From positions 1 to 30,725 of the forward strand of contig WELB01000264.1 in the NCBI GenBank assembly GCA_009602725.1: a stretch of 30,725 nucleotides of DNA. Direction: 5' to 3'. Within the stretch, counting starts at the first letter, position 1; every line of letters begins with the position of its first letter. The notes beneath the pieces were generated by a model. That model was not told where the DNA came from, made no database searches, and saw only the letters and a program-made list of their open reading frames with translations. The translations under genes and the position numbers were made by a program. Source of the stretch: Spirogloea muscicola. Its lineage: Eukaryota; Streptophyta; Zygnematophyceae; Spirogloeales; Spirogloeaceae. Shown piece after piece: positions 2,412-30,547 of this stretch.

Positions 2412-2814
2412 AGGCTATGACAGACCAACTAATGTCAGGTAGCGTTTCTACAGCCCACTGGCCTACGTTTCACTGGGCTAGGTCTCCCAGCTTTGGCTCG
2501 CTGGTTCATCCTATTATCACACTTATTATATCTTGCCGCATCGCGGTGAAGTATGATGTTTTGGGCAATAATCAAAATGCAAATCTAAGTGAAGAATTTC
2601 CAACTCATGTTTCCAACCCATGGTAAGGATGGGAATGTTGTGTACAAGTCATGTTGTAGCGGATTTGATAGTGCTTTTGATCTATAAATATTTCGTGGGT
2701 TGGAGTAGCTACTTCGGCGGAGAGGAAAAGAAGGACATATTGACAAGTTTATCTTGCAATGCTGAACTTGCATTTGCCAAACTGATTACACCGCATAACG
2801 TTAACGTTTCTTCC
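2412..2814. other. No identifiable gene
   Basis: AT-richer sequence with no recognised coding or repeat content. Short open frames on both strands lack family motifs and were left out. Confidence 0.3.
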
Positions 2815-3070
2815 ACACTCTGCTTCAAAACATTGCCAATCTAGGCTACACTCGACGCGCAGATGTGTTTCCGGCTGAGATGGGCTTGCCAGCTGCATAT
2901 CTGTCGCTCTTGCGACGTCGAGTTTCGGCCTGTTTGCAGCGTGCTCAGGCTAGTGCCTTGCACCAGAAAGCTGGGCGAGCTCTAGTAGGTGGCAGAAGGG
3001 CTCCGTTCCTGGCATCTAGTATTCATGCATCGAGTAGTGACCTTTATGTTTTGACCCGTGGTTATTGAGC
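2815..3070 (+). mobile_element. C-terminal fragment of RLE-type non-LTR retrotransposon
   Basis: After one frame change near the start, the frame reads LLQNIANLGYTRRAD.., then the AYLSLLRRRVSACLQRAQA region, and ends SDLYVLTRGY-stop at about 3067. It matches, almost residue for residue, the C-terminus of the minus-strand copy at 23640-23880 (same QNIANLGYTRRAD, RAQASALHQ and HVLTRGY-stop). The 5' part of the element is missing. The sequence after the stop (about 3085-3140) also matches the sequence after the stop of the 23.6 kb copy, so coding end and 3' UTR are one unit. Confidence 0.8.
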
Positions 3071-3149
3071 GGGTCAATCTGCTGTAGGTTATGTAGATTT
3101 TTTGATGTGCTTGCCTTTGTACCTGGCCATTTGGCCTACATTTCTTTCT

Positions 3150-3227
3150 AATACACGATCTCTTTTATTCTCAACGGGCGAGCACTTTCTTCTATTTCAG
3201 CCCCTATCCTCAATGGGCGAGCCCTTT
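3150..3227 (+). repeat. Two tandem retroelement 3'-terminal modules
   Basis: The first module ends CTCAACGGGCGAGCACTTTC and is followed by TTCTATTTCAGCCCCTATCC and a second CTCAATGGGCGAGC. These match the 3'-most sequence of the non-LTR family seen complete at 29658-29705, although the left arm of the hairpin is absent here. The direct juxtaposition of two ends suggests stacked, heavily truncated insertions. Confidence 0.65.
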
Positions 3228-18208: not shown

Positions 18209-18242
18209 GCATCCGCCATCGCCCCGCATCCGCCATCGCCCG
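18209..18242. repeat. 17-bp tandem duplication
   Basis: GCATCCGCCATCGCCCC is followed directly by GCATCCGCCATCGCCCG. It lies in a C-rich stretch (18190-18400) upstream of the plus-strand NAC gene and might sit in its promoter or leader region. Confidence 0.7.
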
Positions 18243-23409: not shown

Positions 23410-23560
23410 AATGCTCGGTTTTCACGTGTGAGCAACAGCAAAACAGAGTAACTCGAAGCAGGAAAAGCGGCACTCTGCCGGGACCCAGAAGCAGCAGCTG
23501 TTGCACGACCAGCGCGCGTGTGGACCGCATGAGCCAAAGGAAAATTCCGTGCATTAGAAA
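23410..23560 (-). mobile_element. Short C-terminal coding fragment
   Basis: The minus-strand frame reads LAHAVHTRAGRATAAASGS, then ASSYSVLLLLTRE. It matches SLAHAVHTRAGRALAAASGS and ASYSDMVLLTRGY of the copy at 26890-27115. It is a separate truncated copy placed between the 3' end of E3 and the hairpin module at 23300. Confidence 0.65.
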
Positions 23561-23639
23561 CACATGTAGGCCAAGTGGCCAAGTACAAGTACAAAGGCAA
23601 GCACAAAGAAAGATCTACATGACCTACAGCAGATTAAAT

Positions 23640-25800
23640 GGCTCAATAACCACGGGTCAAAACATGAAGGTCACTAATCGATGCATGAATACTAGCTGCC
23701 AGAAACGGAGCCCTTCTGCCACCAACTAAAGCTCGCCCAGCTATCTGGTGCAAGGCACTAGCCTGAGCACGCTGCAAACAGGCCGAAACTTGTCGTCGCA
23801 CGAGCGACAGATATGCAGCTGGCAAGCCCATCTCAGCCGGACACACATCTGCACGTCGAGTGTAGCCTAGATTGGCAATGTTTTGAAGGAGAGTGTGGAA
23901 ACGAAGACCCAGACAGCCAAATATGTCGATTGCCGCTGGCAGGAGCTGATCGCATTGGGAGTCATCTGTGTAGTGCCGCAATTTTCTTTGTTCTGCACCG
24001 CCCACTGCGTGCCCAGCGATGTGTCGATGCTGGGCCTTTATATGCATCCGTAACAACAACGTCGACCAGGGCCCGTGGTCCTTTACCAGGTTGCACGCCC
24101 ACAATGTCAAGTGTGCCGCGATGATGACGTCCCTGGGCGTCCGTGGTGATAAGCATGATATTGTTGACTTCCACGACCGCACAGTAGCCGGCGTCGTGCA
24201 TCAAGCCCGCCAGGGCATCGCGAAGGAGGTTGTGAATGCCCACCACTGCTGGTCCAGTGGGGCATCTCAGCATGTGCATGTGAGTGGCGAGCACAGCACC
24301 CTCTGCACCGAAGCCGCACTTGCACTGGCGCACCCCAATCCGGCAGTTAGGTGGGAGGCCGAGGAAGACTTGAAGCGGTGTTGGAAAGGCCTCGGACCTG
24401 ATGCGACGGCGTTGGCGACGGGGGGAGAGGTGAGGCCAGGTGTGGCCAGAGAAGTAAGTCTTGCCAAGCTCCTTGGATTGTTCTGAATATCTGGCAGCCT
24501 CCTCAACCTTCTGCGGCGTTCGTCTTCCACTGCCGTAACCAGCCTGAATTGTGCCCCTTTATCAGAAGCTTGGGCGAGGGCGGAGAATGGCGTTAGTAGG
24601 ATTTGGAGAGAGGGGAAAAAGCTGATGGCTGAGTCGCGGATGCTACTCAGAGCTTGGAAGGGGAAGGAGCCTTCCTCCACATTGCGTACAGGGTCGTGGA
24701 GGCATGGGAAGCGCATGGGAAAGTGCCAGCAGCCCAGGAAGGCTGCTTGCGCCGTCTGCTCTAACGACAGGCAGCCAAGGCCGCCCATGCGAGTAGGGAG
24801 GGAGGCCTGGAGGGAAGCTGAAGCTGAGGGGAAAGATGAAGAATGTAGTAGGGATGCCAGGGACTGCTGAAGGGAGTCATCATATTCCTTGTAGAGCTCC
24901 CCCACCATGCCCAATGGGGCGACTGTCCGTTGCAGATAGCAAGCCCGTTGGCCGATGCAGCGGGTGAGGATGGCCAACGCCAGCTGCGTGTCCCCAAGGA
25001 GGGGAAGGGAAGGGAGGGGGGCGAGGTGTTCTTTAAGGCGTTCCTGCAAGTCCACCGCCACGTGAGCTGGTGTACCAAAGTGGACCTTGAGGATGGTCAA
25101 ACCATCGGCAGGGGTCTGACAGCCGTGAGGAAGCTGAATATCAGCAGGGAGACCGCATGGGGACCAGGCCACGCTCTTGGACGGGCAAACCGGCAGTCCC
25201 ATCAGGTCCAATTCGCGAACGAGCAAGGGGTAAGCCGCCATGACTTCAGCTGGAGGTCCAATGATGTGTGTGTCATCCGCGTAGGAAGGGAAGAGGAGGT
25301 CTGGGTGTTGGCTCTGAGAGCGCGAATAGCCCGGCAATGTGCCAACGCAAACAGGATTGGGCTAAGGTAATCCCCTTGGCCTGTGCCGGAAGATGACCAC
25401 AGCGTCTTCCACGACTCTCCGGCTTGCCACAGCAGCCGCCCTGGGCAGCCATAGGTCATGAGGAGAAGGGGTATAAGGGAAGGGAAGTGATTGCGCAGCT
25501 CCTCCATGATGACGCTGCGCTCCACTGTGTTAAAGGCGTTACTGATATCCAGCCCAAGGACCATCATTGAAGGGTCCACGTTGAGAGCGGCACGGATGCC
25601 GTGGATAAGAAAGTGCTCGCCCATCGCCGTGGATAAGGGGCCTCCGCCCTGCAGGACATGCCAGCATCAAGTTGGTGGGGTGATAGATAGCTGGAGTTTC
25701 AGCTCGCAGCACACGGCCTTTGATATCAGCCGCATGACAACCTCCGTCATCGCAATGGATCTCACACCGCCTGTTGGCTTCGCGAGGGCTAGCAAAAGAG
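23640..25800 (-). mobile_element. Non-LTR retrotransposon copy E3 (RT, zinc motif, endonuclease, tail)
   Basis: This is the most continuous copy. RT: PTGGVRSIAMTEVVMRLISK (about 25780), IRAALNVD, VLGLDISNAFNTVE (motif A), GTGQGDYLSPILFALAH (motif B), SYADDTHIIG (motif C, YADD at 25272-25283), GLPVCPSKSVAWSP (motif D). Then a thumb region (GMVGELYKEYDDSLQQSLAS), a zinc motif CKCG..HMHMLRC near 24255-24324, and the endonuclease core LDIVGVQPG...ALVDVVVTDAY (D-x14-D, codons at 24106 and 24061). RKLRHY follows, then AAIDIFGCLGLRFH, and the tail ends HVLTRGY-stop. One-base frameshifts lie between motifs B and C, before the zinc motif and after the endonuclease core. Restriction-like endonucleases placed after RT define R2/CRE-type elements; most plant LINEs are L1 or RTE types with an upstream AP-endonuclease. 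The 5' part is absent. Confidence 0.85.
25598..25637 (-). mobile_element. 16-nt retroelement 3'-end micro-insertion with 12-bp target duplication
   Basis: GCCGTGGATAAG occurs at 25598-25609 and again at 25626-25637. Between them lie 16 bases which, on the minus strand, read GATGGGCGAGCACTTT. Fifteen of these are the conserved 3'-terminal motif of the family (CAATGGGCGAGCACTTTCTT). The 28 extra bases shift the RT frame. Ignoring them, the frame before (ending PLIHG) runs straight into IRAALN. This is an insertion of only the last bases of an element into the RT of copy E3. Confidence 0.8.
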
Positions 25801-27115: not shown

Positions 27116-29705
27116 CGGCAACCCGGGCGGCTCTGGACTCCCTCCACCCCTCGGCCAGCTCCCCCCTGCCACCGTAGTTGGCCGCGTTCGCCCCGCCCGA
27201 GGAGGTGGTCTTGGAAGCCGACGCCCTCAAGAAGGCCCTCCAGACCAGCCGTCGCAGCGCCGCCGGCGGCCCCTCCCACATGCTGACTGAGCACCTGCGG
27301 GAGATGTTCCTCGAGGGTGAGGCGGCAGACTTCAACGCGCTGCTGCAGATCTACCAGCGTATGGCCCGAGACAATGTGCCGGCCAGCATCCGCGGCGTAC
27401 TGTGCACCAGCACGCTGCTCGCCCTCGACAAGCAGAGCGGGGGAGTCAGGCCCATTGCCATTGGGGAGGTCCTGTACCGCCTGGTGAGCCGGGTACTCTG
27501 GCAGCAGCATGCGGGGCCGGCGCAGGTGCACATGGCGCCACACCAGTACGGCGCGGGGCTGCGGAGTGGGGGCAAGGCCGTGTCCACGGGGTTCGTGCGA
27601 CCTTGGACCAGCACCTGGGGTAACTGGTGCTGGCCGTTGACGTGAAGAATGCCTTCAACACTGTGGAGCGCGCCAGTATTGCGGAGGAGCTCCGGGCGTC
27701 CTTCCCCTCCCTGGTACCCTTTTTCCGCTTGGGGTACGGTCAGCCCAGCGACCTCCTCTGGCGGACAGGGCGTGATCAAGTGGAGGTCCTGCAGTCCCAA
27801 GCGGGCACGCGCGGCAAGGGGACCCCCTCGCCGGCTTCTACTTTGCGCTCGCTCACCACCGGGCTCTGCAGGCTACCCACGAGTCCTACTCCCCACCTTC
27901 GCCGACGACACCACCATAGTCGGCCCTCCGGAAGACGTGGCGGCGGCCTTCGGCACCTTCGTGCTGCAGCTGGCCACCCTCGGGCTGTCCATTCGGGCGT
28001 CGAAGTGCGCGGCTTGGTCTCCCTGCGGCCTCCCACCCACCCTGACGCTGCCCACCGGATGCCAGACTCCAGCAGATGGCTTCACACTGCTGGGGGTCCC
28101 CATCGGCGCGCCGTCCTTCGTGGAGGGGCAGCTGCGAGCCCGCCTTGCGGAGCATCTTCGGCCTGCGGCCCGGCTTTCCGAGCTGGACGACGCAGCTGTC
28201 GTTGGCCATGTTGATCAAGGCCATTGGGCAGCGGCCCCAGTACTTGACGCGGGCCACCTCGCCGTCCCCAGGGGCGTTGGCGGCGTACGCGGGTTTTGAC
28301 GCAGGCATGGTGGCGAGCTTGGCGGCCGTGGTCCGCCACCAGGAATTCCTCCAGTCGCCAGCCGCTATCCACCAGGCGGCGCTACCCCTCAGCCACGGTG
28401 GTCTCGGCCTGCGCCCGCTCGAGGCTGCATACCTCGGCAGCTGGGCGCAGACGGCCGCCTCCGTGGCCCAGCGCTTCATGGTCCACGGCCGGCGTGCACT
28501 GGAGCAGGCGGTGGTGGAGGTCGACATGGGCGCGCTGCCGTGCCAGGTGTCGCTTCGCTCAGCCCACCAGGAGCTGCTCGTGGCGCACCCGGGCCTGGCA
28601 GGCCAGGCGGTGTCCTTTGCACACCTCGCGCACACCGCTGACCTGCGCGTCCAAGCGCGCTTCCCGGCCGTGGTCGACAAGGCCGCCTACACCACCGCAG
28701 TGCGGCAGCTCCCCGAGGCCGACCTACGCGGGCGCGCGAAACTTCAATCGGCCTCCTCCCCAGGGACAGCGGCGTGGCTTCAGGCCCTCCCCATCAATAA
28801 CGCCCTCACTCTCCCCGATGAGGTATTTCCCACTGCCGTCCACCGGCACCTGGACTGCCGTCTCCATGTCTCCAGGGTGTGCGTCAGTGTGTATGCGGCG
28901 AGTGAGGGGCCGAGTCTGGGAGCTGGCCGCTCGTGTTCTGCGCTGCGCCCACGGCGGCGAGCGGACAGCGGCCCACGACCGCCTCCGCGATGCGATGCAT
29001 GGCATCCTGGTGGAGGCTGGCTTCTCGGTGGCACCGGAGCACTCCGGCGTCATGCCGCTCCAGGAAAGGGCCGACGGTCTCCACGCCCGTCGCGTTGACC
29101 TGGTGGCCACCCCACAAGCCGGCCGGCCACGTATTCTCCAGGACGTGGTGATCACCGACGCATACGACCGCTCACACCCAGCCCAATCTGCCACCAAGGC
29201 TGGGTATGCAGTCGCCTGCGCCGCTCGGGCTAAAGAGCTCAAATACGCCGACCATCGAGTTCTTCCCATTGGCAATTGACACCCATGGGGCGTTGGGCGC
29301 TCGGTGGCTCGAGCTGCTCACCCAGCTCGCCCGCCACAACATCGCCCGTCGCTTCCATGGGGAGCCGGTAGACTTTCCTGCAGCTAGGACGCTGGCGCAA
29401 GTGTATTTTATGCGCCTGGCCGTCTCGCTACAGAAGTTTATGGCCCGCGCGCTGCACCTTCGTGCCGGCAGAGCCCTCGCTGCTGCCTCTGGCTCTGACC
29501 AGGGGACCCACTTCCAGGAGCCTAGCATCTCTGATCTGCGGCTGCTTAGCAGGGGTTGCGGAGTGATTCGTAGCTGCCATGTGTTTTTTTGTGCTTGTTT
29601 TTCTTAGCGCTTCTCCTTTCTCCTGGGCCCCTTCTCGTACTCTGTTCATTCTTTTTTGGGCTGGCTTTTCCAGCCCCTATCCTCAATGGGCGAGCACTTT
29701 CTTCT
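27090..29705 (+). mobile_element. Non-LTR retrotransposon copy E4 (5'-truncated, through to the 3' terminus)
   Basis: It begins with LLAPTNAATRAALDSLHP, then RT: RRSAAGGPSHMLTEHLREMF, SGGVRPIAIGEVLYRLVSRV, MLAVDVKNAFNTVE (motif A), GDPLAGFYFALAHHRALQ (motif B, third frame), PTFADDTTIVGPP (motif C, FADD at 27898-27909), LGLSIRASKCAAWSP (motif D), FTLLGVPIGAPSF. The thumb follows (GMVASLAAVVRHQEFLQ, SHGGLGLRPLEAAYL). The zinc motif is broken: RQCVCGE then a stop at about 28896, then a frame change to VLRCAHGGERTAAHDRL. Endonuclease: RRVDLVATPQAG..RILQDVVITDAY (D at 29097 and 29142, x14), then AKELKYADH. The tail is FPLAIDTHGALGARWLEL, ARALHLRAGRALAAASGS and SISDLRLLSRG; the final Y-stop has decayed. 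The 3' UTR has hairpin GGGCTGG-CTTTT-CCAGCCC (29658-29676) and ends CAATGGGCGAGCACTTTCTT. At least four frameshifts make it inactive. Confidence 0.88.
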
Positions 29706-29961: not shown

Positions 29962-30317
29962 GGCCTGTTTACACTTGGTCGCGCGGTCACGCACGTGCTG
30001 ACCGCCGGGTCAAGGGTTTGGTCACCGCCACGGAGGCCGACGCTGCTTGCACGTGCGGTATAACCTCCCAAGCCCCGCCAGGTCGGATTGGCTGCCCACC
30101 TAGGGCAGCAGCTTCAAACTAGGGCAGCAGCTTCAAGCTAGGGCAGCAGCTTCAAACCCCGGCAGGCTTGAATATCCTTGTCAAAGGTCGGATGCTTCCC
30201 GACGATGGCTGTGAGTATTCGCTTCCACTCAGCCAGCGCTTGGCCTGAAGCAGACAAGAAGAGGCGGTCAGTGGCTCAGTGACACCGGTCGTCGCGGAAG
30301 ACCGTTCGCAATGAACT
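29962..30317. other. Unassigned stretch, possible DNA-transposon end
   Basis: It starts GGGCCTGTTTACACTTGG immediately after the TTACTGA of the preceding fragment; GGGCCTGTTT-type starts are common at ends of plant cut-and-paste transposons. No matching inverted end is present in the window. On the minus strand (about 30250-30150) a short protein-like frame reads ALAEWKRILTAIVGKHPTF, then DKDIQACRGLKLLP-stop. I cannot name it. Confidence 0.25.
30100..30156. repeat. 19-bp tandem repeat, three units
   Basis: CTAGGGCAGCAGCTTCAAA is repeated three times without spacer (30100-30118, 30119-30137, 30138-30156); the middle copy ends in G instead of A. On the minus strand each unit contains a TAG. 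The array sits at the end of the short frame described at 29962-30317, so unit one duplicates that frame's last codons. Confidence 0.9.
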
Positions 30318-30547
30318 CCCTGGCCCCCTTCTCGTACTCTGTTCATTCTTTTTCGGGCTGGTTGTTCCAGCCCCTATTCTCAATGGGCGAGCACTTTCTT
30401 TTCAGCCACCAGTCAATCTGGCCGCGCTTTTCTTTTCTATTGAGGAGAGGCCAGCCCAGAAAAGAAGAAAGTGCTCGCCCATTGAGAATAGGGGCTGGAA
30501 CAACCAGCCCGAAAAGGAATGAACAGAGTACGAGAAGGGGGCCAGGG
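30318..30547. repeat. Fold-back pair of retroelement 3' ends (83-nt arms)
   Basis: The arm at 30318-30400 (plus sense: CCCTGGCCCCCTTCTCGTAC through GAGCACTTTCTT) and the arm at 30465-30547 are reverse complements with one mismatch, spaced by 64 bases. Each arm holds the family's 3' UTR end, including the hairpin GGGCTGG-TTGTT-CCAGCCC (30355-30373; 30492-30510 on the minus strand). Two tails thus stand tail-to-tail. The spacer contains GCCACCAGTCAATCTGGCC, which is also found (minus sense) near 11450. Confidence 0.9.

Follow-up and report, generated by a model that had tools for sequence, protein, structure and literature searches.

A LINE 3' end of about 16-19 nt between perfect 12-bp repeats inside another LINE copy of Spirogloea muscicola

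Truncation at the 5' end is the rule for LINEs, and the closest described systems show how far such truncation can go and what LINE junctions and tails look like. Target-site duplications in DT40 cells measure 15 bp for L1 and 5 bp for ZfL2-1, the length depending on the LINE, and LINE 5' junctions carry extra nucleotides, microhomology or direct joining (PMC4245944). The shortest Alu insertion, in SERPINC1 (Beauchamp et al. 2000, in a table of PMC4859970), apparently has 6 nt of Alu sequence followed by 40 nt of poly(A), and it came with a 1.4-kb deletion. An insertion in NF1 consists of poly(T) alone; its donor is uncertain, perhaps an Alu or L1 that was severely truncated (PMC3219598). Tails of the stringent type, with a stem-loop and a short terminal repeat, are described for ZfL2-1 and ZfL2-2 (PMC4176376), and the Chlamydomonas SINEX-2_CR has (CTTT)n and a RandI tail (PMC3747384). 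LINEs with a restriction-like endonuclease include R2, NeSL/Utopia and HERO (PMC4640811).

The window, by which we mean the whole stretch of 30,725 nt that was analysed (contig WELB01000264.1), contains a copy of an E3-type LINE with 28 extra bases in its reverse transcriptase (RT) region. We think it very probable that these bases are an insertion of an E1-type LINE made by target-primed reverse transcription that stopped after about 16-19 nt. Like 5'-truncated LINE insertions, the insert keeps the 3' end, has lost the 5' part and is flanked by a target-site duplication; unlike the usual ones, it has only about 16-19 nt left and no long poly(A) or repeat tail. As a retro-insertion with almost no element left it resembles the SERPINC1 Alu and the NF1 poly(T), and it differs from both in its unique 3' sequence, its perfect duplication and its identified donor family. 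Very short retro-insertions are already known for human Alu and L1, so what is less usual here is their number in one genome and the lack of a long tail. No description of this LINE family or of such a class of short insertions was found in the open-licence papers searched. The features at the locus are as follows:

23549-25794, minus strand: the host, a frame-broken E3-type LINE copy (RT and C-terminal endonuclease-like region), with ends taken from the alignment with L189.
25626-25637, minus strand: upstream (5') copy of the target-site duplication, CTTATCCACGGC, an exact 12/12 repeat.
25610-25625, minus strand: inserted LINE 3' end, GATGGGCGAGCACTTT, read exactly; 19 nt if the next CTT is counted as tail.
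25598-25609, minus strand: downstream (3') copy of the target-site duplication, CTTATCCACGGC, exact 12/12; its CTT may equally belong to the element's tail.

Read letter by letter, the minus strand from 25637 to 25598 is CTTATCCACGGC / GATGGGCGAGCACTTT / CTTATCCACGGC, in the wider context ...GGAGGCCC CTTATCCACGGC GATGGGCGAGCACTTT CTTATCCACGGC ATCCGTGCC..., which confirms the perfect 12-bp duplication around 16 bases that the initial annotation had claimed. With one mismatch allowed, GCCGTGGATAAG occurs in the window at exactly two sites, 25598-25609 and 25626-25637 (0.14 expected), and two or more matches appeared in 3 of 100 shuffles. When exact direct repeats of 12 bases were sought at start-to-start distances of 13-60, simple repeats excluded, it was the sole pair at distance 28, the others lying at three places (12696, 18209-18213 and 30100-30126). 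The inserted 16-mer has seven matches in the window at no more than two mismatches, itself included, where 0.03 are expected; three of them, with one mismatch each, are at the tail positions 29685, 30382 and 30468. With CTT common to target and tail, the locus can be read as a 12-bp duplication with a 16-nt insert or as a 9-bp duplication with a 19-nt insert. A single G separates the duplication from the 15-mer tail; either it comes from a donor variant, G standing at this position in 31 of 2587 copies, or it was added at the junction. Both repeats are seen to adjoin the fragment directly, and we therefore take the shortness of the fragment to be original and reject shortening by later decay.

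A 201-base query across the site gave 53 listed genome matches (95 candidates, 40 scored). The 28 bases are absent from all 19 aligned paralogs, these being the best 19 of the 53 listed matches with the window's own set aside; six of the 19 (L002-L007) are identical in the aligned stretch, and the 19 are not all independent. When the insert and one repeat are removed, the joined flanks can be aligned with L008 and with L189-L191 along their full 95 bases, with a single gap (L189, L190 and L191 are identical to the loci L007, L006 and L004). The empty site that a target-primed, 5'-truncated LINE insertion should have is thus directly observed, in line with the proposal of the initial annotation that most copies of the E3 RT would lack the 28 bases, and we reject the reading of these bases as a shared subfamily feature. 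The window actually differs from the paralogs by 29 bases, since its copy carries one more C immediately to the left of the first repeat. This C beside the duplication falls outside what the insertion model explains and counts against it.

The host copy is 90.6% identical to L189 over 2288 aligned columns, and it would be a pseudogene even if the insert were absent. At the junction of PLIHG and IRAALN the open relative L189 reads ...MSCGAEALIHGIRAALDVD, and skipping the 28 bases does reconnect PLIHG to IRAALN locally, as had been proposed, but it restores no open RT, because the window copy changes frame twice in the roughly 40 codons ahead of the insert. For the same reason we rejected frame repair as a sign of an intact ancestor at the locus. 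The RVT_1 match in the host at 25202-25666 (E=1.2e-5) is under Pfam's cut-off, and that in L189 is at 1.1e-16. In the PDB the RT matches R2 (E=2.4e-4), with bacterial group II intron-type RTs ranking higher. The frame of L189 runs uninterrupted from one stop to the next, and this single long frame has what we take, by eye, to be zinc-finger-like motifs, an RT and a C-terminal endonuclease-like motif. In this arrangement, with its zinc fingers putative, it is like R2, NeSL/Utopia and HERO; unlike those restriction-like-endonuclease LINEs, the insertions here are dispersed rather than at one gene, and the endonuclease is putative. L189, L190 and L191, all E3-type, are 99.1-99.6% identical over 2.7-3.0 kb and one of them, L189, is open for 1350 codons, and we therefore regard the E3-type family as recently active. 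An inverted pair in the window, 2811-3125 and 23586-23900 (315 nt, 93% complementary, 20.5 kb apart), includes by eye the 3' parts of two E3-type copies.

The initial annotation took the 16 bases for the conserved 3' end of the host's own family. They are a LINE 3' end, but that of another family: the three E3-type copies examined end in ...TTTCTAATACAC(G/C)ATCT, also written ...CTAATACAC(G/C)ATCT, and we rejected the 16-mer as the host's terminus. Because E3-type copies end differently and the 16-mer tail sits in E1-type copies, the donor is, judging by sequence, an E1-type LINE, related to but distinct from the E3-type family of the host. The relevant features in the window are:

27178-29703, plus strand: E1-type LINE copy of the donor family, with frame-shifted RT-like and endonuclease-like frames, 3' UTR and tail.
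29686-29703, plus strand: ATGGGCGAGCACTTTCTT, the 3' end of this E1-type copy.
30383-30400, plus strand: another tail copy of the same kind.
30465-30482, minus strand: another tail copy, inverted relative to 30383-30400.

Exact copies of the 18-base tail ATGGGCGAGCACTTTCTT number 2587 in 153 Mb; its reversed control has none. Without CTT, the 15-mer has 3300 copies genome-wide, with CTT next in 2587 of them. The base before the 18-mer is G in 31 copies, C in 49, T in 472 and A in 2035 (A by subtraction). The endonuclease-like frame of the window E1 copy gave 126 matches, from which 12 loci were cut out; with differences at up to 12 of 26 residues tolerated, the endonuclease-like motif was found in 11 of them, and in nine of these 11 the tail lies 598-613 nt behind the motif (at no more than two mismatches; four exact, the window's own included), the window's own copy, with 598 nt from the motif start, among them. 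The fragment therefore ends where the donor ends, about 600 nt behind the motif. The initial annotation had held that an abundant 16-mer without any link to the element would count against its reading; the 16-mer is abundant, but it is linked to another LINE family. Pfam found no RVT_1 match in the window E1 copy, whose frames are broken. The C-terminal regions of E1 and E3 are 31-41% identical, with a conserved motif around a DVV(V/T)T stretch in the endonuclease-like region. Structure prediction of the C-terminal region gave a mean pLDDT of 37.7, and a PDB profile search with it returned no relevant match, only chance-level ones (E 0.44 and 0.5).

The tail terminus is not the one fixed base that had been suggested: CTT follows 2587 of the 3300 15-mers, and among 91 copies, each chosen for carrying one CTT or more, one unit follows CACTTT in 58, two in 29, three in three and four in one. 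By folding energy alone, a stem-loop is predicted in three variants of the E1 tail; its outer 3' arm would be the ATGGGCG of the insert, and the letters after it would be unpaired. With this predicted stem-loop, a single-stranded 3' end and 1-4 CTT units, the E1 3' end resembles the stringent-type tails, and its repeat unit, CTT, is unlike those of the tails compared. Against the E1 query, 18 listed loci have an identical score (1.8e-85, 292.6 bits, 70%, query 1-238, 253-residue frames) and several further loci score nearly the same; the identical scores suggest a recent burst of one subfamily. Two inverted tails in the window, 30318-30400 and 30465-30547 (83 nt, 99% complementary, 64 nt apart), are perhaps two insertions of one family in one site.

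For the insert itself we infer the following course. An E1-type LINE complex would have nicked the E3-type copy, leaving a nicked strand that ends ...GATAAG-3', and its AAG would have served as primer by pairing with the CUU end of the E1 RNA. The reverse transcriptase would then have copied about 16-19 nt of the RNA 3' end, the length of the product that we see, before the first strand ended early. The other strand would have been cut 9-12 bp away, and joining and repair would have doubled CTTATCCACGGC, which does stand on both sides, around the tiny cDNA.

The main rival is break repair: a staggered double-strand break whose overhangs, when filled in, give the 12-bp repeat, with a 16-nt scrap of LINE DNA or cDNA captured and no target-primed synthesis. 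At a single locus this yields an identical product, and the source sequence is plentiful, with 3300 15-mers in the genome. Captured scraps would be expected from anywhere in the element. We searched 34 neighbourhoods, partly overlapping and totalling 158,893 bases, for pieces of 17-35 nt with an identity of at least 90%. The neighbourhoods had been picked by their RT- or endonuclease-like sequence, independently of tails. Nine pieces reach the 3' end, compared with internal pieces at one place from the first 35 positions and two from positions 60-81; 17 further pieces in the hairpin region were left uncounted, as related tails share that stretch. This 3'-end bias favours target-primed synthesis over break repair, although the control is small. 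We consider break repair with a captured scrap unlikely.

Other very short copies of the tail occur elsewhere in the genome. Our length-unselected sample consists of the first 91 listed 18-mer places (contigs C1, C2 and the start of C3), and a set of 171 copies, including the insert under study, joins to these all 80 with G or C in front. Lengths in the 91, counting the 18-mer, are at most 25 nt in four (L170, L186, L184 and L026c), 30 in seven, 40 in 11, 60 in 21 and 120 in 51; they are estimated from alignments and possibly too long, as in L121, which has 40 nt by alignment but whose repeat puts its start about 23 nt from the CACTTT end. The four of 91 (about 4%) extrapolate to the order of 100 loci. 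Direct repeats of at least 10 lie within 40 nt upstream of the tail in five of the 171 copies, the insert under study included, versus 0.05 expected from mismatched pairs. For repeats of at least 9, the counts are six versus 0.17 expected within 40 nt, 10 versus 0.75 within 150 nt and 13 versus 1.3 within 400 nt. Ultra-short copies with such repeats include:

L170: 15-bp repeat, 7 nt between repeat and tail.
L101: 12-bp repeat, 4 nt between repeat and tail; dropped from the 171-copy repeat count by the family-word filter despite this repeat.
L030: 10-bp repeat, 3 nt between repeat and tail.
L057: 10-bp repeat, 0 nt between repeat and tail.

The build with a duplication directly flanking the fragment, 12 bp (or 9) at our locus, thus recurs, and tails flanked by direct repeats, which the initial annotation had suggested looking for, are found elsewhere with repeats of 9-15 bp (search threshold 9). 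Among 25 ultra-short copies picked by hand from the 80 with G or C in front, 18 have no repeat of at least 7, which counts against target-primed insertion and is a point for break repair; many copies have therefore lost the repeat, formed without it or arisen otherwise. For two somewhat longer copies (about 50-75 nt) the joined flanks give gapless matches to host-repeat copies: L028p to L152 (95% over 84 bases) and L049 to L024 (93% over 54 bases). The joined flanks of L030 and L057 had no match among the sequences compared, those of L170 and L121 had only 30-33-base or gapped matches, and L026c was left out since its best matches were L026c itself. The central proposal of the initial annotation, a target-primed insertion cut to near nothing, is therefore supported by the 19 empty paralogous sites, by the LINE 3' end and by similar near-zero insertions elsewhere.

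A duplication length of 12 for the family, as first proposed, does not stand: it comes from one event, reads equally as 9 with CTT shared, and lengths elsewhere are 9-15 bp, with those below 9 also possible given the search threshold of 9. Four cases have a core match of at least 8 within 10 nt of the tail, and in them the bases at the duplication start that continue the tail number two in L057, three in the insert under study, four in L170 and three in L121, where we counted only bases beyond which the right flank departs from the CTT period. With a core of at least 7 the mean is 1.8 over 15 cases versus 0.47 by chance, and with a core of 8 it is 1.75 over eight cases versus 0.88; L171, L155 and L164, which resemble host-repeat matches, were kept in these means. 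L053 has zero such bases, and the repeat of L030 starts with letters other than the tail's. Duplications that continue CTT probably reflect a target strand ending in AAG that primes on RNA ending in CUU, as far as these few sequences go, and such priming would explain why the duplication here reads as 12 or 9 bp. This tendency of duplication starts to continue the tail is a further point against break repair.

We give very little probability to a longer LINE insertion whose 5' part was deleted afterwards. Such deletion is a possible route to the ultra-short copies without repeats, and it would be expected to take the upstream repeat, which here sits 1 nt from the inserted 15-mer; none of the 19 fetched paralogs (the best of 53 listed) has any insert at the site, let alone a longer one. 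Just as improbable is the reading that RT sequence was duplicated locally in tandem and that the 16 bases came about by chance or through gene conversion from the family tails 4-5 kb away in the same window, since slippage is not expected to put a 16-base LINE 3'-end match between perfect repeats, no conversion tract with more of the neighbouring tail is seen at the insert site, and other contigs also have sites built in this way.

Target-primed insertion of the E1 3' end, if it is the right reading, catches the priming step almost bare and indicates that nicking, priming and second-strand completion can succeed with less than 20 nt reverse transcribed. We put at about even chances the broader idea that near-zero LINE insertions are regular genome-wide, with lengths running smoothly down to about 20 nt, about 4% of tails at 25 nt or less, and priming by 2-4 nt of CTT pairing. 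Insertions of 15-30 nt resemble ordinary small indels, and if they are regular, ordinary repeat annotation would miss them, and LINE activity and small frame-shifting insertions would therefore be undercounted. The thousands of tails in this genome could be used to measure how soon reverse transcription fails and which pairing starts synthesis.

Two more very short tail pieces, TTCTCAACGGGCGAGCACTTT and CAGCCCCTATCCTCAATGGGCGAGCCCTTT, lie close together in the window at 3166-3227 on the plus strand; they measure 23 and 30 nt by alignment and lie, by eye, between two apparent LINE fragments. The same host sequence, (C)TACTGGAAG, stands behind the four LINE 3' ends of L142, L144, L176 and L190, as though a single site in another repeat family had been hit repeatedly.
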